Shown here in pieces: positions 2,803 through 60,101 of a stretch of 64,000 nucleotides of DNA. The position numbers were made by a program, and so were the translations under genes. The notes below the pieces were generated by a model, which was given only the letters and a program-made list of their open reading frames with translations, had not been told where the DNA came from and did not search any database. Origin of the DNA: Methylocaldum szegediense (GTDB lineage: Bacteria; Pseudomonadota; Gammaproteobacteria; Methylococcales; Methylococcaceae); assembly GCF_949769195.1 (NCBI RefSeq), contig NZ_OX458333.1, positions 2,294,001 to 2,358,000 on the forward strand, read 5' to 3'. Each line of letters opens with the position of its first letter. The first letter of the stretch is position 1.

Positions 2803-3867
2803 TGTCACGTCCCGTATGATTATTTACCGAGAAGGAGTTATGCTCTGTTCGAAGCCCGGAGCCTTCTCCAGGAGATATTCGGTTCGTCCAAGTGAGGTTT
2901 CTCTCCATGCAGATTCGTCTTCATAAGAACGCCCGTACCACCCCGGCGGTTCGGCAGGCCATTCAAGCGTCCACGTTGAGCGAGCGCGCCTTGGCCCAAA
3001 AGCATGGCATTAGCCGAACGACCGTCCGCAAGTGGAAACACCGATCCTCGGTCGAAGATGCCTCACACCGGCCCCACACCCTCAGAACCACGCTCACGCC
3101 CGCCCAGGAAGCCATCGTGGTCTACCTCCGCCAAGCTCTGCTCCTCCCCTTGGATGATCTCCTGGCCGTGACCCGGGAATTTCTCAATCCCGCCGTGTCC
3201 CGTTCCGGGCTAGACCGCTGCCTGCGCCGCCACGGGGTGGCGTCCCTCAAGACCCTGCTTCCGCCTACAGAGAAGGCGAAGGTCAAACCCTTCAAGGCCT
3301 ATGAGCCCGGCTTCCTTCACCTGGATGTTAAGTACTTGCCCGCCATCGACGGCGAACCCCGCCGATACCTGTTCGTCGCCATCGACCGCGCCACCCGCTG
3401 GGTCTATGTCGCCCTCAAGCCCAACCGCACCGCCTTAAGCGCAAAGGACTTCCTCAAAGCGGTGATTCAGGCCGCGCCTTTCCGCATCCAGAAATGCCTG
3501 ACCGACAACGGCTCGGAGTTTACCGACCGTTTCCTGACCCGAACTCGGCAGCCCTCGGGGACGCATGAGTTTGACCGCCTCTGTACTGAACAAGGCATCG
3601 AACATCGCCTGATTCCGCCGGGCCGGCCCCAAACGAATGGCCTGGTGGAACGCTTCAATGGCCGCATCGAGGAGGTGTTGCAAACCCATCACTTCGATTC
3701 AACCGCCGATCTGGACACCACCTTGCACCGCTATGTCGAGCTGTACAATCATCACATTCCCCAAAAGGCCTTAGGCCATCTCACCCCGATCCAGGCTCTC
3801 AAAAACTGGCAACTGTCCCACCCGCATCTCTTTCGCAAGAAGGTTTATGATCTTGCGGGACTTGACA
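2803..3867 (+). mobile_element. IS481-family insertion sequence, copy 1 (complete)
   Basis: The element is 1065 bp. Imperfect terminal inverted repeats begin TGTCACGTCCCG on the left and TGTCAAGTCCCG (reverse complement) on the right and extend about 26 bp. It is flanked by a perfect 6-bp target duplication CCTAGC (2797-2802 and 3868-3873), matching the NCTAGN duplication known for IS481. A second copy of the same length lies at 54042-55106. It sits between the convergent acyl-ligase gene and der. Confidence 0.93.
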
Positions 3868-3872
3868 CCTAG
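2907..3872 (+). CDS. IS481-family transposase
   Basis: A 321-residue DDE transposase. An N-terminal helix-turn-helix (ERALAQKHGISRTTVRKW) is followed by an integrase core with the acidic triad in FLHLDVKYL, LTDNGSEF and GLVERFNGR. The ATG at 2907 gives MQIRLHKNARTTP, the normal family start; a GTG 15 nt earlier is in frame but less likely. The stop TAG (3870-3872) lies wholly outside the element, in the target duplication, and the last sense codon is partly target DNA. The frame is intact. It differs from copy 2 by D/E in the DLxTTL region and by the last residue (T here, N in copy 2). Confidence 0.95.
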   Translation: MQIRLHKNARTTPAVRQAIQASTLSERALAQKHGISRTTVRKWKHRSSVEDASHRPHTLRTTLTPAQEAIVVYLRQALLLPLDDLLAVTREFLNPAVSRSGLDRCLRRHGVASLKTLLPPTEKAKVKPFKAYEPGFLHLDVKYLPAIDGEPRRYLFVAIDRATRWVYVALKPNRTALSAKDFLKAVIQAAPFRIQKCLTDNGSEFTDRFLTRTRQPSGTHEFDRLCTEQGIEHRLIPPGRPQTNGLVERFNGRIEEVLQTHHFDSTADLDTTLHRYVELYNHHIPQKALGHLTPIQALKNWQLSHPHLFRKKVYDLAGLDT

Positions 3873-16596: not shown

Positions 16597-17304
16597 TTAC
16601 CCCTGAGCGCGTCCGGAGCGGCGGCGGCCGATCATGATAAGACCGAACAAGGCCGATCCTAAGAGCCAAACCGACGCCGGCAACGGAATCGGCGCGACAT
16701 CGACTCTTAAACCGCCGAAGTCTTTTTCGATCCAGCCAAAACCATTTTCCGGCGCAAGGGCCGCGAGAATATCTTTAACTGTCAGCTCGATTTCGACCTG
16801 ATTTGCCGCAAGAGCCTGGTTGACGTTCAAATTCCACGGACCTCCGTTGACCCCGTCGTTCGTGCCCTGCGCGAAAAATGTATCGACCCCGATATCGCCT
16901 ATGGTCTCGTGCGTCTGCGCATCCGCAACTCTCAATGATGAGAAAGCCGATACCCATGATCCATTACCAGTTACTTGATACACGCCGTTTTCACTCCAGC
17001 TCACACCGGTGATCCTCTGATTCGGCGCCGCCGTGGCCCTAAGGGTGAAACCAATGATTTCGGTATCGACCTGACCATTCCCGTCGGATAACGCATCGAA
17101 CGAGAGCGGTCGCGGATTGAAATTAAGGCTGACACCGGTGTCGTCAGAAACGATCTCCGGCTCACCGAGGGCGCCCGGGTCACCGCCGACTAGCGTGAAG
17201 TCCACGAGCTCGCTGGACCAGGACGTCTGTGCGTGAACCGGTGTCCATGCCAATCCCAGCGACAGCACGGCAGCTGGCGGAAGGAATGTCTTTAGCGTGA
17301 ACAT
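16597..17304 (-). CDS. VPLPA-CTERM (PEP-CTERM type) exported protein
   Basis: 235 residues. A Sec signal peptide (ends WTPVHA, about residue 25) precedes a beta-rich, Asn/Gly-rich body of about 180 residues with no recognised domain. The C-terminus has the sorting signal IPLPASVWLLGSALFGL, a membrane span, then the basic tail GRRRSGR. This tripartite tail marks exosortase substrates, which are cut near PxPA and attached to exopolysaccharide or the cell surface. No exosortase is in the window. GGAGG lies before the ATG. Two structured repeats lie upstream on the same strand. Confidence 0.9.
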   Translation of the reverse strand: MFTLKTFLPPAAVLSLGLAWTPVHAQTSWSSELVDFTLVGGDPGALGEPEIVSDDTGVSLNFNPRPLSFDALSDGNGQVDTEIIGFTLRATAAPNQRITGVSWSENGVYQVTGNGSWVSAFSSLRVADAQTHETIGDIGVDTFFAQGTNDGVNGGPWNLNVNQALAANQVEIELTVKDILAALAPENGFGWIEKDFGGLRVDVAPIPLPASVWLLGSALFGLIMIGRRRSGRAQG

Positions 17305-51358: not shown

Positions 51359-52106
51359 AGTGTGTTTTTCCTCGGAAACTCGATAACCAAATACGTTCTA
51401 CGGCCCAGGGCTAACCCCCAGTTCTTATCCCTTCCGATGGCCAGCGGTGTCTCCGGGGAGCGGCGGAACCGCCCTTCCAATCGCAAACGGTCGCTCCGGG
51501 AGCACCGAAGCGCCCCTTCCAATCGCCAACGGTCGCTTCGGAACGACATGTTCTGCCGTGGATAACAATGCAATCGCGAACGGTCGTTTCTTCTTCGAGC
51601 CTAACCCGGTAAGTCCTCACCACCCCCTCCGACTCCAGCCGAGTGGTCCTCCTTGCCTACTCCACTCGTGTCCGAAAATACCAATCAATCGTCCAGATTC
51701 GGATGCAAGTTTTTTCTCACCCGGCGAACTCCGGGCAAATTTGCTGTAAATAGCAAACCCCACAATATAGTCAAGGAATTACACGGTGACAAACGCTCCA
51801 ACGCGCAGGAATCATTTGCTAATTGAGCGCTACGGGTGCAGCTCGCGGAACAGGTGTGTCAAAAGAGTGAGCTGTTTCAAATACGGCGCGGCCTGAATTT
51901 CATGGCCACGCTAAAGCACGAGAATGCAGCAAAAAGTACACCATTTGGACATAGTATACCCCGGTGATGCATAAGGAAAAATCTTCCCGTCGAGAAACTA
52001 TTCTCGGCTTTAGGTCGAGGACGTATCATGTTCCGACCTCGTGCCGGAAAGCTCGATTCCTGAAAAGACGGCGCGTCCCAATAGAATCAGGCGCGGAGTC
52101 GCTGCG
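51359..52106. other. Gap between opgG and sixA
   Basis: About 750 bp divergent region with the four 42-bp repeats at 51430-51590 and a possible hairpin AGGTCG/CGACCT near 52011-52045. No gene is supported. It should hold the promoters of opgG (minus) and sixA (plus). Confidence 0.5.
51430..51590. repeat. Four imperfect ~42-bp direct repeats upstream of opgG
   Basis: Units share CCCTTCCAATCGCAAACGG followed by TCGCTCCGG, starting near 51430, 51472, 51514 and 51560. The first and last are the most divergent. The array ends about 70 bp upstream of the opgG start codon. Confidence 0.65.
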
Positions 52107-52601
52107 ATGAAAAAGCTGATCGTCATTCGTCACGCCAAATCCGACCGGGATTCGCCATCGCTGGCCGACATCGATCGCCCTCTGAATGACCGCGGGAGAT
52201 ACGATGCATCACTCATTGGGAGTATATTGAAACTTCGCGAAATGGAACCGGATTCAATCATATCAAGTCCGGCGAAACGCGCTCTCGAAACCGCCGAACG
52301 AGTAGCGGAGGCCGTCGGTTACGATAAGGCCGGAATCGTCGTTCGCGACTGCATTTATAATCAAGAGGTGCCGGCTTTGGTCGAATTGATTCGATCGATC
52401 GAGAATATCCACGACACCGCCTGCCTGATCGGCCACAATCCCTCTCTAAGCGAACTGGTCGCTCGACTGACCGGCGAGAACATTGGTTCGCTTCCCACCT
52501 GTGGAATTGCGGCAATCGAATTCACGGTTGAGGATTGGGTCTACATTCTGGCCGGGAGCGGACGACTGTTGTTTTTCGACTTTCCCAAACGGCATCGTTA
52601 G
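52107..52601 (+). CDS. sixA: Phosphohistidine phosphatase SixA-like
   Basis: 164 residues of the histidine phosphatase superfamily. The catalytic motif is VIRHAKSDRDSPSLADIDRP near residue 5 and the second histidine lies in LIGHNPSLSELVARLTG near residue 106. SixA-type enzymes dephosphorylate phospho-histidines on HPt or PTS proteins. GGAG precedes the ATG at 52107. It is monocistronic. Confidence 0.9.
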   Translation: MKKLIVIRHAKSDRDSPSLADIDRPLNDRGRYDASLIGSILKLREMEPDSIISSPAKRALETAERVAEAVGYDKAGIVVRDCIYNQEVPALVELIRSIENIHDTACLIGHNPSLSELVARLTGENIGSLPTCGIAAIEFTVEDWVYILAGSGRLLFFDFPKRHR

Positions 52602-52700: not shown

Positions 52701-52976
52701 TTACTGCACCTTTATTGGCGGCAGCTCAAGCTGAAAGAAGCCTGCAATGGAATCAAGAACAGCGGCCGTCGCTTCGATCCTATCAACTACAATGCCTTGC
52801 AGAAAACCAACCACGGTGCCAACGTAACCGCCCTCAACGTCGGCGAGTTGTTCTTCACTCATCGGAGTCAAGTTGGACACCTGGCCCAAGGCCCGGAAGT
52901 CGCTGTCCGCATCCGCCCAGGCTGAGCCCGCAACCATAACTGAAGACAATACCGCGGCTAATGCATACGATTTCAT
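52701..52976 (-). CDS. Secreted double-glycine leader peptide A
   Basis: 91 residues. A Sec signal peptide MKSYALAAVLSSVMVAGSAWA (cleavage predicted after residue 21) is followed by a short linker and the leader MSEEQLADVEGG. In the canonical double-glycine pattern the key positions are Met/Leu -12, Ser -11, Leu -7, Val -4 and Gly -2/-1, all present here. The core after GG (41 residues) is hydrophobic and amphipathic (YVGTVVGFLQGIVVDRIEAT), without cysteine. AAGGAG lies 8 nt before the ATG. It differs from B and C in the core, while the first half is nearly identical. The role (bacteriocin, signal or structural peptide) is not known. Confidence 0.85.
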   Translation of the reverse strand: MKSYALAAVLSSVMVAGSAWADADSDFRALGQVSNLTPMSEEQLADVEGGYVGTVVGFLQGIVVDRIEATAAVLDSIAGFFQLELPPIKVQ

Positions 52977-53122
52977 AAGTCGATCTCCTTGTCTTAAATT
53001 ACACGCTTTCCTTAAGAGCGCGCCGGGTCCTTAAAGCCCTGCGACGCGAGAACATAGCCGCCAAGTCCCTTTGGCTCGGGTCGCGTCCTTACGACCAAAC
53101 ATCGAATTGCAGGCATCATGCC
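52977..53122 (-). promoter_or_regulatory. Conserved 146-nt 5' leader of peptide gene A
   Basis: It matches the leaders of B and C over its whole length. It carries ANGGA motifs (AAGGA or AGGGA) including one in the loop of GGTCG/CGACC, one in CCAA/TTGG and the ribosome site AAGGAG. The pattern resembles CsrA/RsmA-controlled leaders, by inference. The promoter itself is not identified. Confidence 0.65.
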
Positions 53123-54035
53123 ACCCCCCTACATAGCGTGCACCTGTGGAGATCTATCCACTTGTTTCCCCGTGGACTTTATATTCTTCGAGCAAGGACT
53201 TCCGACCACGGCTTAGCTTTTTTGCGGGTTTGAAGCACCTCGATCGCCAGCCTCGGCGCGCAAGAATTTAACTTTTTGAAAAACCAGATCAAATCTTTTT
53301 ATGGATCGTCGCTCGGTACTGTTTTCTTGATTTTAAAAGTGAGTCATTCTGGTGAAACAGTCACGCCGAGACTTCGTAATCAGGGAGCCGTATCAGCAGA
53401 CGCCAATAGCTTGGCTCGAACTCGCTCAGGGCAACGAATATCCCTGAAACAGCGCACTCTATCGATGCAATCACGGTTTTTAATCGCCGTGACGTTGCTC
53501 AAACCGGCTACAGCCTCGCTCAGGAACAACCGTGAAGCCTAGATACCAGACAAAATTTAAATTCCTGTAACAGCAATTCGCGATGCAACCGTGATGTCGT
53601 CGCAATCGATTGATCTAGCAAAATTTTTAAGAAGGCCGCTGGTTAAAATTTTTGAAAAAACCAAACTATGGAGCTTTCAATAGTTAACAAATATTTTTCG
53701 AAATGGATCGCCGTTAACGAACCGTGCAACGCAATAACGCACGGTAGCATCAACTCGCTACGGATAGGTAACGAGGTTTCTTCTAGGGTGGGGCGTTCTG
53801 GGATGAACCGGAAAATTTTTTATTTTTAAGCTTTATATAAGCACTTTGAATCTACGCGTGGATATAGTCATCTAGCGCGATCCTATGAGGCATCGAATGA
53901 AAGTTTATCGAAGGGAAAACAGCAATCGATTAGTCATTAACGCTACGTGAAATCGCGAAAAACCGGCAAGAACACGGTCTCGCCTCTTGGATCTTCGGAT
54001 ACCTTTCGTCGAAAAGCAGGCAAGCGGGCAAGCGG
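53123..54035. other. AT-rich gap in the peptide island
   Basis: About 900 bp of lower GC than the flanks, with no supported gene. It contains two copies of a TTTTTGAAAAACC motif (53270-53285 and 53649-53661). The composition suggests foreign or relaxed sequence. Confidence 0.5.
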
Positions 54036-54041
54036 CCTAGC

Positions 54042-55106
54042 TGTCGCGTCTCGTGTGATTATTTACCGAGAAGGAGTTATGCTTGGTTCGAAGCCCGGAG
54101 CCTTCTCCAGGAGATATTCGGTTCGTCCAAGTGAGGTTTCTCTCCATGCAGATTCGTCTTCATAAGAACGCCCGTACCACCCCGGCCGTTCGGCAGGCCA
54201 TTCAAGCGTCCACGTTGAGCGAGCGCGCCTTGGCCCAAAAGCATGGCATTAGCCGAACGACCGTCCGCAAGTGGAAACACCGCTCCTCGGTCGAAGATGC
54301 CTCACACCGGCCCCACACCCTCAGAACCACGCTCACGCCCGCCCAGGAAGCCATCGTGGTCTACCTCCGCCAAGCTCTGCTCCTCCCCTTGGATGATCTC
54401 CTGGCCGTGACCCGGGAATTTCTCAATCCCGCCGTGTCCCGTTCCGGGCTAGACCGCTGCCTGCGCCGCCACGGGGTGGCGTCCCTCAAGACCCTGCTTC
54501 CGCCTACAGAGAAGGCGAAGGTCAAACCCTTCAAGGCCTATGAGCCCGGCTTCCTTCACCTGGATGTTAAGTACTTGCCCGCCATCGACGGCGAACCCCG
54601 CCGATACCTGTTCGTCGCCATCGACCGCGCCACCCGCTGGGTCTATGTCGCCCTCAAGCCCAACCGCACCGCCTTAAGCGCAAAGGACTTCCTCAAAGCG
54701 GTGATTCAGGCCGCGCCTTTCCGCATCCAGAAATGCCTGACCGACAACGGCTCGGAGTTTACCGACCGTTTCCTGACCCGAACTCGGCAGCCCTCGGGGA
54801 CGCATGAGTTTGACCGCCTCTGTACTGAACAAGGCATCGAACATCGCCTGATTCCGCCGGGCCGGCCCCAAACGAATGGCCTGGTGGAACGCTTCAATGG
54901 CCGCATCGAGGAGGTGTTGCAAACCCATCACTTCGACTCAACCGCCGATCTGGAAACGACCTTGCACCGCTATGTCGAGCTGTACAATCATCACATTCCC
55001 CAAAAGGCCTTAGGCCATCTCACCCCGATCCAGGCTCTCAAAAACTGGCAACTGTCCCATCCTCATCTTTTTCGAAAGAAGGTTTACGATCTTGCGGGAC
55101 TTGACA
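54042..55106 (+). mobile_element. IS481-family insertion sequence, copy 2 (complete)
   Basis: 1065 bp, nearly identical to copy 1, with the same terminal repeats (TGTCGCGTCTCG left). Flanks are CCTAGC (54036-54041) and ACTAGC (55107-55112), so the duplication has one mismatch, or the flanks have since changed. It lies in the loop of the terminator of peptide gene B. Confidence 0.93.
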
Positions 55107-55111
55107 ACTAG
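54146..55111 (+). CDS. IS481-family transposase, copy 2
   Basis: 321 residues with intact helix-turn-helix and DDE core as in copy 1. The stop TAG (55109-55111) again lies wholly in the flanking target site, giving Asn as last residue instead of Thr. The open frame runs upstream to 54083, but the family start is at 54146 (MQIRLHKNARTTP). The near identity of both copies points to recent movement. Confidence 0.95.
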   Translation: MQIRLHKNARTTPAVRQAIQASTLSERALAQKHGISRTTVRKWKHRSSVEDASHRPHTLRTTLTPAQEAIVVYLRQALLLPLDDLLAVTREFLNPAVSRSGLDRCLRRHGVASLKTLLPPTEKAKVKPFKAYEPGFLHLDVKYLPAIDGEPRRYLFVAIDRATRWVYVALKPNRTALSAKDFLKAVIQAAPFRIQKCLTDNGSEFTDRFLTRTRQPSGTHEFDRLCTEQGIEHRLIPPGRPQTNGLVERFNGRIEEVLQTHHFDSTADLETTLHRYVELYNHHIPQKALGHLTPIQALKNWQLSHPHLFRKKVYDLAGLDN

Positions 55112-55127
55112 CCACTCCCCCGCTTGG
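55107..55127 (-). other. Right half of the disrupted terminator of peptide gene B
   Basis: CCCGCTTG at 55119-55126 pairs with CAAGCGGG at 54021-54028 on the other side of the IS. Without the IS and one target copy they form an 8-bp stem, followed on the minus strand by CCTGCTTTTCGA, like terminator A. The half lies 47 nt beyond the stop codon of gene B. Confidence 0.7.
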
Positions 55128-55173
55128 ATGATGTGGCCCGTGCGATTCGCACACGGGCCCTTCGCTATTACGG

Positions 55174-55455
55174 TTAATTCATGCTCTGTGTGGTGACTTG
55201 CGCAATGGTCTGAGTTGCGATACCCAGAACACTCAGGTTGATGCCAACCGAAACGGGTACGGCCAGGTTGAGACAAACATTCGCAAGATTGATCAGGCCA
55301 CCGTTGCAAGCTCCGCCTTCCACGGCCGCAAGCTGTTCCTCACTCATCGGAGTCAAGTTGGACACCTGGCCCAAGGCCCGGAAGTCGTTGTCCGCGAAGG
55401 CAGAACCGGTAACCATCATCGAAGACAATACCGCGGCCAATGCATACGCTTTCAT
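55174..55455 (-). CDS. Secreted double-glycine leader peptide B
   Basis: 93 residues. The signal MKAYALAAVLSSMMVTGSAFA is cut after residue 21 and the leader is MSEEQLAAVEGG. The 45-residue core starts ACNGGLINLANVCLNLAVPV and goes on with a second hydrophobic stretch and a Thr/Gln-rich end. Two cysteines (core positions 2 and 13) could form a disulfide. It is a close paralogue of C. AAGGAG lies 8 nt before the ATG at 55455; the upstream TTG frame is not the start. Its terminator is split by IS481 copy 2. Confidence 0.88.
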   Translation of the reverse strand: MKAYALAAVLSSMMVTGSAFADNDFRALGQVSNLTPMSEEQLAAVEGGACNGGLINLANVCLNLAVPVSVGINLSVLGIATQTIAQVTTQSMN

Positions 55456-55601
55456 AAGTCGAACTCCTTGTCTTGCATTCAACGCTTTCCTTACGCTCGC
55501 GCCGGGTCCTTGAAGTCCTGCGACGCGAGAACATAGCCGCCAAGTCCCTTTGGCTTAGGTCGCATCCTTACGACCGATAGTCAAATTGCAGACATCATGC
55601 C
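55456..55601 (-). promoter_or_regulatory. Conserved 146-nt 5' leader of peptide gene B
   Basis: Five ANGGA motifs are seen at 55565-55569, 55545-55549, 55507-55511, 55488-55492 and 55465-55469 (the last is the ribosome site). The first two sit in loops of the GGTCG/CGACC and CCAA/TTGG stems. Compared with A and C the changes mostly leave these stems and loops intact. Confidence 0.7.
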
Positions 55602-56220
55602 ATCCTCGAAAATTCGCTTGGACACCGCTCTATCCAACTGTTTTTGAGCTGATTTTTCTCAGTGACTAACGGTCGTAGATTTTCCGCGACGTTCGAAGTC
55701 ACCGAAATTACCTGTTTCTCCCTCGGAAAATGTACGTTTTTGAAAAGCGCAGCCAAGAAACGCTTTCGGCATTCACTGCTCAAGTTTATGTCCGTATTTT
55801 GGAACCAAGGTGAAACATGCCTGGTTGATTTCCTTTGATTCGAACGCTTACGTCTAATCGTCCCGCAGAGGAAATTGCACCCCCGTTACATGCTGATGAC
55901 ATCGCGCCTCGATATCGGCCGATGCAAATGCCATCGGTATACCGAAACGAATACTGAACTGTCTCGCGAGTGATTTTTTCGCCGGCCCGTTATCCGTCTT
56001 TGTCGTTCTCTCACCGTAGCCGTACGATGGCAAGATGCCAGTAGACTTTTTAATTTTTTGTTATCGTCAGCAGGCACCCGTAGGGAAAGATAATGGAAGC
56101 AATTGATTAAACGAGATCTTTTGCGCGTGGAGTCGATTTAATTTTTTGAAAAACCGCCGCCCTAGAAGCGGTCTCGCACAAAACGGAAATGCTTATCGCG
56201 GATAATCCGCGAGTTATGCT
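55602..56220. other. Gap between leader B and the IS256 remnant
   Basis: AT-rich, no supported gene. A TTTTTGAAAAACC motif at about 56143-56155 is shared with the gap at 53123-54035. Confidence 0.45.
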
Positions 56221-56221
56221 C

Positions 56222-57590
56222 GAAAGTTGTGGATGAGGGATTGAGGTAGGCGGCGTATTCTGGAGGGTCTTCAAGGTCATCCCTTCCTACAAGAGGAGCG
56301 AATACGCCATGAGTGAAGATAAGATCATTGCGCTGAAGAATCCAGGGGCACCAGCTCCCGTGGCGGATGCGTTAACGGAGTTGTTACGGGAAGGCGCCCA
56401 GCGGATGCTGGCGGCGGCGATCGAAGCGGAGGTGGCCGCCTTTCTGGAGCGATTCAAGGACGAGAAAACGGCGGATGGGCGCCAAGCGGGTGGTGCGGAA
56501 CGGTCATCTACCGACGCGGTCCATCCAGACCGGTGTGGGTCCTATCGAGGTCAAGGTGCCGCGGGTGCGAGATCGGTCGAAGGCGATCCGGTTGACCTCG
56601 GCGATTTTGCCGCCGTACCTTCGGCGCCCCCAGAGCCTTGAGGCGTTATTGCCGTGGTTGTACTTGAAAGGGATCTCGACCGGGGATGTTCAGGAGGCGC
56701 TGACGGTGCTGTTAGGGCGGGAGGCGCCGGGGCTGTCGGCGAGTACGATCAGCCGCTTGAAAGAGGTCTGGAAGGACGAGCATCAGCGTTGGTCGCGGCG
56801 GGATTTGTCGAACCGGCGTTATGTGTATCTCTGGGTAGATGGCATTCATTTCGGGGTACGGCTGGAGGATGCGGCGCAGTGCATTCTGGTGGTGATAGGG
56901 GCTACGGCGGACGGCAAGAAGGAGTTGCTGGCGTTGGCTGATGGCTATCGGGAGAGCGAACCGTCCTGGCGCGAGGTGCTGTTGGATCTCAAAGCCCGGG
57001 GTCTCACCCTTGATCCGCACCTGGCCATCGGCGACGGCGCCTTAGGCTTCTGGAAAGCCTTACCGCAGGTGTACGGGACCACCCGTGGCCAACGCTGTTG
57101 GGTCCATAAGACGGCGAATGTGCTCAATAAGCTGCCCAAGAGCCAACAGCCCAAAGCCAAAGCGGCGCTGCACGAGATCTGGATGGCCGCCACCCGGCAG
57201 GAAGCGGAGAACGCGTTCGATCATTTCGTCGAGGTGTATCGGCCCAAGTAGCCCAAGGCGGTGGCCTGCCTGGAAAAGGATCGGGAGACGCTGTTGGCGT
57301 TCTACGATTTTCCGGCGGAGCATTGGATTCACCTGAGGACCACTAATCCAATTGAATCCACCTTTGCCACGGTGAGGCTCAGAACCGCTAAAACGCGAGG
57401 CTGCGTGTCACGGGGAAGTATTCTCGCGATGGTGTTCATGCTGGTGAAAAGCGCCGAGCGACACTGGCGGAGATTGAATGGAGTTCCGCGGCTGGCTCAG
57501 GTCATTGAGGGAGTCGTGTTCAAGGACGGCGTTCAGGAAGACGCCGAGAAAGTCGCCGCCTGATCAACTCCCCATACACAAAATTTGACC
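56222..57590 (+). mobile_element. IS256-family element remnant
   Basis: Imperfect terminal repeats are visible: TTGTGGATGAGGGATTGAGG near 56227 on the left against TTTGTGTATGGGGAGTTGAT near 57587 on the right (reverse complement), both followed inward by GGCGGC. Exact ends and a target duplication cannot be fixed. Its transposase is broken. Confidence 0.7.
56309..57563 (+). pseudogene. IS256-family transposase, frameshifted and with an internal stop
   Basis: The reading frame starts MSEDKIIALKNPGAP and is IS256-like through FLERFKDEKTADGR. An extra C at 56482-56483 shifts frame; the next part begins KRVVRNGHLPTRSIQTGVG and holds the mutator-type core with RYVYLWVDGIHFGVRLED and GDGALGFWKAL. 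A TAG at 57249-57251 (expected Tyr in RPKYPKA) ends that part, and the remainder (CLEKDRETLLAFYDFPAEHW, TNPIESTFATVRLRT) follows in frame. Two independent lesions make it inactive. Confidence 0.88.
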
Positions 57591-57734
57591 ATTACTCTAA
57601 TCCGCAAAACAAGAGGAGAGACCGCCGTAGGAAGAGTGGTTCACTGACCGCTGCCCCATGATCCGGCCAAATACATAGAAGCTCGGCATTCGCAAAACAG
57701 ACGCCTAACACTACCGCAACCTCAAGCGCGGAAT

Positions 57735-58457
57735 TCATCTGAATGGCGGATAAAGACTCGGGAGCGTCCTAACCGTCAGATCTGTTGTGGGGCGAGACAG
57801 GAGATCGGCCCGTTCGGCAAAATCCAGCAATCGCGGCTCGGGATAATCGGTCGGTCTTCCCAATGCTAAGGGATAGGACACTATACTTTCTTCTCCCGCC
57901 CGTCCAAGAACGAAGATCACGCCGCCGTATTCGTCCTTGAAATGGGACAAACTCATGCGCAGGTTGCCGCGCCCCGGATCTGCGAGATAAACGCGGTCCC
58001 CCGCAATCCCTCGCAGTATCGCGAAATGGTGATAGCCGAACGGATGCACGTAAACAAGGACGGGCGCGACGAGTTGCCTGAGCTGCTCGACCTTCAGTTC
58101 GAAACCAGCGGCGCGGTACCCTTTTTCTTCGGCAACCTTTTTGAGATCAAGCAGCGAAAAGCCGATGCGCTTCTTACGTGCCCACTGCTCTTTCGTCAGG
58201 TTGGCCAATATCGCGTTAAGACGAGTCAAAATCTCTTGCTCGGAGGTATCCTCGCCGTAGTAATACCGCAGCAGCGTCGCCAACGCGGCAGCCCCGCACG
58301 AGTAATCGAGCTGCTGTTTGACGACATATTGGTCTCGGAGCTCCTTTAATGTATGCCGCCTTGGTGCCGGCTCCTTTCCCGGATCGGCAAAGGCCGCTCG
58401 ATCCGTAACGACACACAATGCCAAAATCGCCATGGCCAGTCGGCTTACCTTTGCCAT
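57735..58457 (-). CDS. Exported C39-family double-glycine peptidase
   Basis: 240 residues. The Sec signal MAKVSRLAMAILALCVVTDRA (ends AAFA, residue 24) is followed by a papain-like C39 domain: Gln 49/Cys 54 in QLDYSCGAAAL, His 144 in GYHHFAILRG, and Asp 160 in VYLADPGRGN. In ABC peptidase-transporters this domain removes the double-glycine leader; here there is neither ATPase nor membrane domain, and the signal puts it in the periplasm. It lies between peptide genes C and B on the same strand, so it is the likely processing enzyme. FapD of the Fap amyloid system is a known stand-alone exported C39 protein. The longer frame to 58646 has no clear start. Confidence 0.87.
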   Translation of the reverse strand: MAKVSRLAMAILALCVVTDRAAFADPGKEPAPRRHTLKELRDQYVVKQQLDYSCGAAALATLLRYYYGEDTSEQEILTRLNAILANLTKEQWARKKRIGFSLLDLKKVAEEKGYRAAGFELKVEQLRQLVAPVLVYVHPFGYHHFAILRGIAGDRVYLADPGRGNLRMSLSHFKDEYGGVIFVLGRAGEESIVSYPLALGRPTDYPEPRLLDFAERADLLSRPTTDLTVRTLPSLYPPFR

Positions 58458-58696
58458 ATCGTCCCGCTCACATCCTATACCGAAAGTGGGTCCTTTATAC
58501 CACACTCCACGATACGCAAATAAGCGGTGACAGGCGTGGTTTCGCGTGCTAACCCGCAGCTTGCGCGATGGGATAAGCGATGGATTTCTGCGATAGACCT
58601 GATCCGCTTCCGTTTTTTCTCGCTTGCGCCTCGCGGACAAGCTCAACTCGCTTTAGTTGATCCGAACCTCCTGCTGGCGTTCGAAGCGACTTATTT

Positions 58697-58836
58697 AACC
58701 CGACCTATTTAAGATGGGCCGGGTTAATCCGGGGCAGGGATGCTCCGGCACGGCGGCAAGCCGCGTGAGTCCAGGCCGGGCGTGTACCGGCCTGGGCAGT
58801 GGCCGGTAAATACCCTCCTGGTATTTACGGGCCTGA
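58697..58836 (-). repeat. Five-hairpin repeat, copy 3
   Basis: It lies between terminator C and the C39 gene, about 240 nt upstream of the peptidase start. The fifth hairpin is a perfect GTAAATACC/GGTATTTAC stem. The others keep the pattern of copies 1 and 2 with changed bases. It may carry a promoter or processing site for the C39 gene, or be a mobile palindromic repeat. Confidence 0.8.
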
Positions 58837-58867
58837 TTAATAATTTTTGGAAACCGCTTGTTCTCTA

Positions 58868-58905
58868 ATAAAAAAGCGGGAGAACGGATCATCCGATCCC
58901 CCGCT
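58868..58905 (-). terminator. Terminator of secreted-peptide gene C
   Basis: Stems AGCGGG/CCCGCT and CGGAT/ATCCG are followed on the minus strand by TTTTTTATT. It lies 49 nt beyond the stop codon of gene C. Confidence 0.85.
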
Positions 58906-58953
58906 TCACCCATCAGCCCGAATGCGTCGTCTGTACGGGCCTCGGCTTTGTCG

Positions 58954-59250
58954 CTAATTGATGTATTGCTCCGTAACCTGGGCGATAGTCTGGGATGCGA
59001 CACCCAAAACACTCAGGTTGATTCCGACCACCACGGGTAGGGCCAGATTAAGACAAACGTTCGCAAGATTGATCAAACCACCGCCACAAGCGCCACCACC
59101 GCTCCAGCCGCCTTCGACGGTCGCAAGCTGTTCTTCACTCATCGGAGTCAAATTGGACACCTGGCCCAAGGCCCGGAAGTCGTTGTCCGCGAAGGCAGAA
59201 CCGGTAACCATCATCGAAGACAATACCGCGGCCAATGCATACGATTTCAT
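58954..59250 (-). CDS. Secreted double-glycine leader peptide C
   Basis: 98 residues. The signal MKSYALAAVLSSMMVTGSAFA and leader MSEEQLATVEGG are as in B. The 50-residue core begins WSGGGACGGGLINLANVCLN, with six glycines within the first ten residues, two cysteines and two hydrophobic stretches. B and C cores align throughout; C has a five-residue N-terminal insertion. AAGGAG lies 8 nt before the ATG at 59250. It is the gene farthest upstream on the minus strand, and the C39 gene follows after the terminator and repeat copy 3. Confidence 0.88.
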   Translation of the reverse strand: MKSYALAAVLSSMMVTGSAFADNDFRALGQVSNLTPMSEEQLATVEGGWSGGGACGGGLINLANVCLNLALPVVVGINLSVLGVASQTIAQVTEQYIN

Positions 59251-59396
59251 AAGTCGAACTCCTTGTCTTGCATTCAACGCTTTCCTTACGCTCGCGCCGG
59301 GCCCTTGAAACCCTGCGACGCGAAAACATAGCCGCCAAGTCCCTTTGGCTTAGGTCGCATCCTTACGACTAATAGTCACAATACAGGATTCGTGCC
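59251..59396 (-). promoter_or_regulatory. Conserved 146-nt 5' leader of peptide gene C
   Basis: The same length and structure as leaders A and B. The third ANGGA motif is AAGGG here, so four of five are kept. One stem has a G to A change at its first base. The ribosome site AAGGAG is unchanged. Confidence 0.65.
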
Positions 59397-60101
59397 ATCC
59401 CTGGAACTTCGCTTCGGTGCGCCCTTTTCTATTGTTTTTTCAAGACAATTTTTTCCGAGCGTGAGGGGTAACAATAATCGAGCGAACTACTCGCCCTTTG
59501 GCCACCGCCTTCGAGGGTGGGAAATGTAAGATTTTGGAAAACGGTGGAGGAAAATCGTTGCGGTACTCGGCATGCGATAGCGGTTTCGGTAACGTACAAA
59601 CCAACCGAAACAGACTTGCTCCAACCCCACGATTGGCGGCATCACTAAAACGTTTCGATCGATTGTGTTACAAACCTGCCCTCATCGGCTTACTCTGCCC
59701 GATCAGCCGTATCGAGGATCAGCCATGGGTATATCCAAACCGAAATCGCCCCTCCCCGCGTCGCGTCTCGCCGACCGATTTCGCATCGCCATCACTGCAC
59801 CATCGGAAACAACTGACGTGTCGCCGAATTCCGACACCGGCTGATTTTTAAGATTTTGTAAGCGCCGTACGTTGGACGATCCTTAAACAACTTTAAGGTC
59901 TTGATTTCAAAAATAATCCAAGCCCTCGATCGATTTTCGTTTTTGAACAGGCGAAATCCGGCAATGACTATGAAAAGCGAAAAAATGAACGCGTTTCATC
60001 TCTGATCGGCGGCCCATCGTCAATACGGGTGAATGACCGCCGATCCCCCGTCTCATCCAACTCGTTTCGGAAAAGAGAGGACTGTCCGCGCTCCCTGTCT
60101 A
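59397..60101. other. Right border of the peptide island
   Basis: About 700 bp with no supported gene, AT-rich at 59840-60000. It should hold the gene C promoter. I see no integration site or direct repeat that would mark an island border. Confidence 0.45.

Follow-up and report, generated by a model that had tools for sequence, protein, structure and literature searches.

Short double-glycine peptides with Sec signals and an exported C39 peptidase in Methylocaldum szegediense: a probable variant of the FapD/FapF kind of secretion locus

Double-glycine leaders are the textbook substrates of cytoplasmic C39 peptidases that form part of ATP-binding cassette (ABC) exporters. A different arrangement is found in the Fap functional-amyloid system of Pseudomonas (the peptidase FapD, the channel FapF, and FapE). 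According to the sections of Rouse et al. (2017, PMC5557850) cited here, the C39 peptidase FapD is periplasmic and its cysteine is required for secretion, FapE is the sole Fap protein with complete N-terminal processing, the target of FapD is called unclear and the canonical C39 motif was not seen in Fap proteins. In the parts used here, a 2018 review (PMC6173800) describes the FapD substrate as undetermined and notes that fapD and fapF are also neighbours in five additional phyla, and a 2025 review (PMC12822426) states that FapD is thought to process the N-terminus of FapE and part of FapF. A literature search, which left most subscription journals outside, found no paper describing Sec-exported double-glycine substrates of periplasmic C39 peptidases. 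Here we analyse a stretch of 64,000 nucleotides of M. szegediense (contig NZ_OX458333.1, positions 2,294,001 to 2,358,000; the window) in which three small genes, called pepA, pepB and pepC, code for a Sec signal followed by a double-glycine leader, and an exported C39 peptidase is encoded among them. With a Sec signal ahead of the leader and a peptidase that is itself exported, recognition of the leader would be shifted to the far side of the membrane.

In our reading, one half of a secretion locus related to FapD/FapF lies in the window, and short double-glycine peptides are its probable cargo. The system is a variant of the FapD/FapF kind and not Fap itself. The mechanism best supported by the sequence comparisons, and the one that we consider probable, is Sec export, then a periplasmic cut after Gly-Gly (GG) by the C39 peptidase, and finally passage out of the cell through a FapF-like channel. 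The precursors would cross the inner membrane via Sec and lose their signal peptide. The periplasmic C39 peptidase would then recognise a leader of the form xDFRAL...MSEEQLAxV and cut after GG, as the canonical motif, the intact active site, adjacency and co-inheritance suggest. The released cores of 41-50 residues might leave through the FapF-like protein, which consists of a coiled coil and a beta-barrel; the linkage of its gene is observed and the transport is proposed by analogy with Fap. In the last and weakest step the cores would most likely join an assembly at the cell surface or in the biofilm matrix. The preliminary description of this DNA had proposed the same order, Sec first and then periplasmic cleavage at GG by a FapD-like C39 peptidase, and the comparative evidence favours it as the best reading.

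All three peptide genes are on the minus strand. pepA (52701..52976) codes for 91 residues, comprising a Sec signal peptide, a leader (MSEEQLADVEGG) and a 41-residue core, and scores 22.4 bits with a leader motif learned from other loci (described below). In pepB (55174..55455; 93 residues counted from ATG-Lys-Ala-Tyr) the Sec signal is followed by a leader ending MSEEQLAAVEGG and a 45-residue core (16.2 bits), and in pepC (58954..59250; 98 residues) by a leader ending MSEEQLATVEGG and a 50-residue core (10.5 bits). In each case the leader comes after a signal region of the classic n/h/c type, as judged by eye and with a home-made script. The leaders end in DFRALGQVSNLTPMSEEQLA(D/A/T)VEGG, i.e. 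MSEEQLAxVEGG. The three genes had been presented as paralogues sharing a Sec signal, this leader and a core of 41-50 residues. This architecture stands, but the cores are not all alike: those of pepB and pepC form one family, and the pepA core has no evident similarity to them behind the same leader. The window genome (4.9 Mb) codes for seven peptides of this family rather than three. Mean identity was 79% in the leader and 47% in the core across 20 type-1 peptides from the genus, for which signal start and VEGG were the collecting criteria and partial copies in genome G007 were not counted. No record in the plasmid collection coded for a pepC-like protein at E 0.01.

The gene of the exported C39 cysteine peptidase (57735..58457, minus strand) lies between pepB and pepC. 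Its open reading frame (ORF) was listed from a TTG at 58646; the ATG at 58457, giving 240 residues with a signal peptide, fits the relatives. The Pfam model Peptidase_C39 (PF03412) matched with 76 bits (E 2.6e-21), and Gln48, Cys54, His144 and Asp160 were invariant in both alignments (12 and 28 rows). By sequence, the closest solved structure is 6mpz, a double-glycine protease domain. The earlier account of a C39 peptidase with its own signal peptide and an intact Cys-His-Asp between two peptide genes is upheld by these data. Its statement that the locus lacks an ABC exporter agrees with the distribution of PF03412 matches: of five in the genome just one lies in the window, which contains no C39-domain ABC transporter. 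Three of the five proteins are stand-alone and look exported. The other two belong to larger frames that by eye resemble ABC transporters: one of 719 residues near 1.55 Mb, with DTG in place of the usual DCG, and one of 929 residues near 1.84 Mb, which has DCG.

The system resembles Fap in its exported C39 peptidase with intact catalytic residues, in its Sec-exported substrates and in a FapF-like protein with a coiled coil (seen by eye) ahead of the barrel, encoded in the same cluster in two sister genomes. In addition, the protein in the FapE position bears the same kind of leader, L-x-D-x-E-L-x3-R-G-R/K. Unlike FapD, the window C39 is not part of the clade formed by the 21 best FapD matches and scores 104 bits against the NCBIfam FapD model, whose cut-off is 330. 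The cargo also differs, consisting of cores of about 45 residues without Fap repeats (FapC/FapB-type), the leader ends in Gly-Gly as opposed to Gly-Arg/Lys, and the genes of the window genome are split over two loci. The score below cut-off, the position outside the FapD clade and the cores without Fap repeats led us to reject plain membership of Fap. FapD had been named as the nearest known parallel in the preliminary description. The window C39 also matched FilB, the C39 peptidase of the putative Fil pilus, with 82 bits, and the outer-membrane protein of the system matched FilC with 43 bits; both scores are far under the cut-offs (475 and 630). The Fil system presumably belongs to Acinetobacter, and a literature search for it found no paper.

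The FapE position deserves attention in its own right. We took the 21 best FapD matches (L113-L133; labels beginning with L or G are ours) as a FapD-like subset, with FapE named by position. Nine of these loci exceeded the model cut-off and are likely to be from Pseudomonas. The subset yielded 13 non-redundant leader matches in 11 loci, and 11 matches were in the protein coded right after the C39 peptidase. Seven of the 13 leaders ended in Gly-Arg and four in Gly-Lys; elsewhere Gly-Gly was the commonest ending (24/41 and 22/50). In FapE-position proteins, including those of loci over the FapD cut-off, the motif is a likely candidate for the FapD cleavage site.

Peptides and C39 peptidases were repeatedly found together. 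The peptides adjoined a window-type C39 in all four genomes of the genus that were searched. In a sample of 38 genomes of the family, peptides occurred in four, all in the genus, and FapD-type C39 peptidases in nine. A peptide model (A7) matched nine of 251 genomes of the order, eight of them strongly; the ninth match (G031, E 0.009) was weak and was left out. FapD-type C39 peptidases were present in 48 of the 251 genomes (E 1e-10; a few in long frames) and in all eight with strong peptide matches, one of them adjoining a peptide in each. These eight genomes are the four of the genus and four corresponding to records L194-L197, so that they represent few independent lineages. In a tree of 140 C39 peptidases (four of 144 rows were left out), the 11 labelled as having peptides with an FxAL leader formed one clade with support of 99/98, reaching Nitrospirota; the labels had been set from gene neighbourhoods prior to the tree. 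Besides the genus, this clade of 11 rows includes Methylomonas, Methyloglobulus, another Methylococcales bacterium, an unplaced gammaproteobacterium and two Nitrospirales. Each of its members is near an FxAL-leader peptide, ending in GG in ten cases and in GQ in one (L198). When the 140 fetched loci were scanned for short ORFs with an FxAL leader, all seven clade members from outside the genus were recovered; four further matches (L135, L172, L214 and L252) look like chance. The preliminary description had proposed to search relatives for the signal and GG leader and for co-occurrence with exported C39 peptidases, and regarded the lack of a phylogenetic link as fatal to its idea. Both the eight of eight genomes with an adjoining C39 and the single clade of 11 provide such a link. 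Chance placement of a C39 gene among the peptide genes was rejected, as the pairing recurs in the other three genus genomes searched and beside the nearest C39 relatives outside the genus.

The generality of the leader was assessed with two sets of loci. The first consisted of 60 regions with a FapD-type C39; 20 of the genomes also supplied a control region each, located 200 kb away (100 kb in one case). Of the 58 places from which this set was derived, the window's own and three with frames 857-1036 residues long were set aside; L122 and L135 share a neighbour's region, and eight places were added. The second set comprised 80 named loci, the best 80 of 583. Removing redundancy among the ORFs with a signal reduced near ORFs from 282 to 202, far ORFs from 262 to 205 and those on the opposite strand from 184 to 145. 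In the second set a strict leader pattern gave 15 same-strand matches, every one of them within 1 kb of the C39 gene; the range of 1-9 kb yielded no match on that strand, and the opposite strand gave two, 2-3 and 6-7 kb away. A motif was also learned unsupervised by expectation-maximisation, from no other input than the first-set ORFs that carry a predicted signal and lie no more than 1 kb from the C39 gene. The top motif returned, aLDDaELAemRGGF, is a double-glycine leader. The window peptides were outside the training set, and loci of other C39 systems of the genus (L163-L165, L171 and L172) were inside it. At 10 bits or more the motif was present in 50/101 near ORFs of the second set, in 0/162 far, 0/87 opposite-strand and 1/101 shuffled ORFs. 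The two sets have at least three contigs (L139/L272, L133/L257 and L170/L206), near-identical loci (L143/L269) and many families in common, and the test was therefore repeated without shared records or look-alikes of training ORFs. The outcome was 35/71 near ORFs (in 29 loci), 0/152 far, 0/74 on the opposite strand and 1/71 shuffled. A control motif trained on far ORFs matched 4/162 far and 0/101 near ORFs. At least one motif ORF was found in 53/60 loci of the first set and 56/80 of the second. The same kind of leader, with Gly, Arg, Lys or a few others as final residue, is carried by exported ORFs next to most exported C39 peptidases examined. FapF-like proteins were encoded within 6 kb of the C39 gene in 56/60 regions and 74/80 loci and in 0/20 control regions; for VpsR-like regulators the corresponding counts were 31/60 and 35/80.

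These last two proteins belong to the peptide/C39 system, and both were missing from the preliminary description. In the sister genomes G005 and G006 a single contiguous cluster contains a FapF-like outer-membrane protein, a VpsR-like sigma-54 regulator, the peptides (four or three), a leader peptide of a second kind and the C39 peptidase; the cluster adjoins sixA- and mdoG-like genes. The window genome carries the FapF-like half, together with the regulator and two peptides, beside a dusA-like gene about 65 kb from the C39 half. A sixA-like phosphatase gene (52041..52601, plus strand) flanks the C39 half in the window, as it does the intact cluster in the two sister genomes; the names sixA, mdoG and dusA are our assumption. 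G007 has a locus divided as in the window genome. The split therefore predates the separation of these two and need not stem from the insertion sequences of the window. Among the NCBIfam models, FapF scored highest with the outer-membrane proteins of the genus, at 85-101 bits for four copies against a cut-off of 700. The regulator carries a VpsR domain (PF20161), which we take to be tied to biofilm control. The second kind of leader peptide, of about 120 residues and with a leader ending EGG, adjoins the first kind (L060 11301-11684, L061 7341-7736, L063 7515-7892 and L035 7063-7443) and mostly has a two-cysteine stretch near the end of its core; the L062 copy reads EGD and its end differs.

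Several points weigh against Sec export followed by periplasmic cleavage at GG and exit by a FapF-like channel. Export and cleavage are deduced from the comparison of sequences, and signal peptides were called with a crude home-made script. The first count of ORFs with a signal and GG, which ignored distance and strand, gave 3.13 candidates per 100 kb in C39 regions and 3.14 in controls. The loci used for training and for testing have homologous families in common, and remote homology between them may persist; the learned motif was not found in 7/60 and 24/80 C39 loci. FxAL leaders also occur beside C39 peptidases outside the window clade, in L170/L206 (one record; 1985-2323 and 3036-3365, ending GQ) and in L203 (6137-6469, ending GE). 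The notion that short FxAL-leader peptides are limited to one C39 clade was dropped for this reason: the trait is centred on the clade of the window C39 and not confined to it, whereas the GG form is confined there. The FapF-like protein lies outside the window, and the outer-membrane protein of the system reaches 90 of 700 bits against NCBIfam FapF, a shortfall like that of the peptidase against FapD. A C39-domain protein resembling an active ABC exporter is encoded elsewhere in the genome. Two further results concern the fate of the cores. The Fap/curlin-like repeat motif VNQNAGdNNlIQN, present in 117/196 near ORFs (its own training ORFs) and 0/204 far ORFs, gave a mean best score of -4.2 bits with window-type cores and -2.5 bits with shuffled cores, and no multi-repeat protein carrying a window-type core was found in the window genome. 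As the window cores do not match this repeat motif, a role at the surface or in the matrix is put forward as a hypothesis, and the system is distinct from Fap proper. An argument for assembly comes from five genomes of the order, one of them of the genus, in which an exported-looking protein of 512-578 residues contains several units like the leader-peptide core of the same genome. These proteins (L064 5963-7699, L288, L287, L295 and L289) have several two-cysteine repeats of about 60 residues; the gene is within about 6 kb of a peptide gene in four of the genomes and on another contig in G593.

The same repeat proteins bear on the proposal that the cores are antimicrobial. The window system shares the logic of the double-glycine leader, the C39 domain and its catalytic residues with class II double-glycine bacteriocins and microcins (C39 relatives 6mpz and 4ry2). 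Unlike these, its precursors have a Sec signal ahead of the leader, its C39 peptidase is separate and exported, and no C39-ABC transporter is linked; a plain bacteriocin was rejected. Bacteriocins or microcins that use Sec and a stand-alone C39 peptidase in place of the peptidase-containing ABC transporter would account for the canonical class II leader, for variable cores behind one leader and for the pepA core, which by eye looks like an amphipathic helix. Weak matches of Pfam Bacteriocin_IIc to the peptides (16-17 bits; cut-off 27.1), beginning in the leader and spanning GG, would also fit. We nevertheless regard such bacteriocins as unlikely, given the recurrence, in five genomes of relatives, of the core as several units of a 512-578-residue protein and neighbours that are a FapF-like protein and a VpsR-like regulator. 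Reading of the clusters by eye, without a search aimed at such short and diverse genes, revealed no immunity-like gene beside the peptides.

It might also be thought that the GG leaders are docking sites or vestiges, that the C39 peptidase acts on another target such as the FapF-like protein, and that the peptides stay in the periplasm. In favour of this, the cited parts of PMC5557850 and PMC12822426 name FapF as a further possible substrate of Pseudomonas FapD, and the last two leader residues vary (GG, GR, GK, AG, GQ). On the other side VEGG is kept in 20/20 type-1 peptides, although it was also a criterion for collecting them, and the motif is restricted to exported ORFs near C39 genes; we hold this explanation to be quite unlikely. 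Secreted signalling peptides of a quorum-sensing kind, to which the short secreted GG-leader peptides in several copies and the sigma-54 regulator might point, are very improbable in view of hydrophobic cores that vary within one genome and a regulator with a VpsR domain, presumably linked to biofilms, and no receptor kinase was noticed in the clusters read, where none was specifically searched for.

The peptide genes have conserved 5' leaders, all on the minus strand: 59251..59400 for pepC, with an AAGGA hairpin and the Shine-Dalgarno sequence AAGGAG, 55456..55605 for pepB and 52977..53126 for pepA. A region of about 130 nucleotides is common to the three, with AAGGA in a hairpin loop and further GGA motifs. 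It is kept in 11/20 type-1 genes of the genus, with paired changes at 4/17 predicted pairs, and is reminiscent of CsrA/RsmA binding sites. Rfam gave no match in the window at gathering scores, and none for the pepA 5' leader up to E 10.

The window genome contains two other systems with exported C39 peptidases. Besides an exported C39 peptidase scoring 147 bits against the FapD model, above the window C39, the second (L030 6315-10393) comprises a VpsR-like regulator and two exported proteins, one of 165 residues with an ELDELRGG leader and one rich in repeats. In the third (L032 6909-8922) the gene after that of a lipoprotein-like C39 peptidase codes for an outer-membrane protein in which an HTH_17 domain precedes a FapF-like barrel; a 102-residue ORF marked by the script near this system has a leader ending VEGKG (L171). 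Two copies of a transposase gene in the window (54083-55111 and 2847-3872) are 98.9% identical, with more copies near other C39 loci of the genome. What we take to be an IS256-like transposase remnant (56309-57563, in-frame stop near 57249) lies between pepB and the C39 gene. Elsewhere in the window, 16597-17304 codes for a protein ending in what is presumably a PEP-CTERM-like sorting signal (VPLPASVWLLGSA type).

On balance we favour the idea that double-glycine maturation after Sec export is general. Exported C39 peptidases would read L-x-(D/E)-x-E-L-x2-(V/M)-x-G-(G/R/K) in many unrelated Sec substrates, including FapE, and hand them to FapF-type channels, and the window system would be a branch in which the leader works as an exchangeable tag for short modular cargo. 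The predicted site in FapE-position proteins, together with a simple peptide substrate of about 70 residues with a canonical site, makes the question of the FapD substrate directly testable. If the idea is true, the leader would serve as a tag for moving short cargo through a FapF-type channel.

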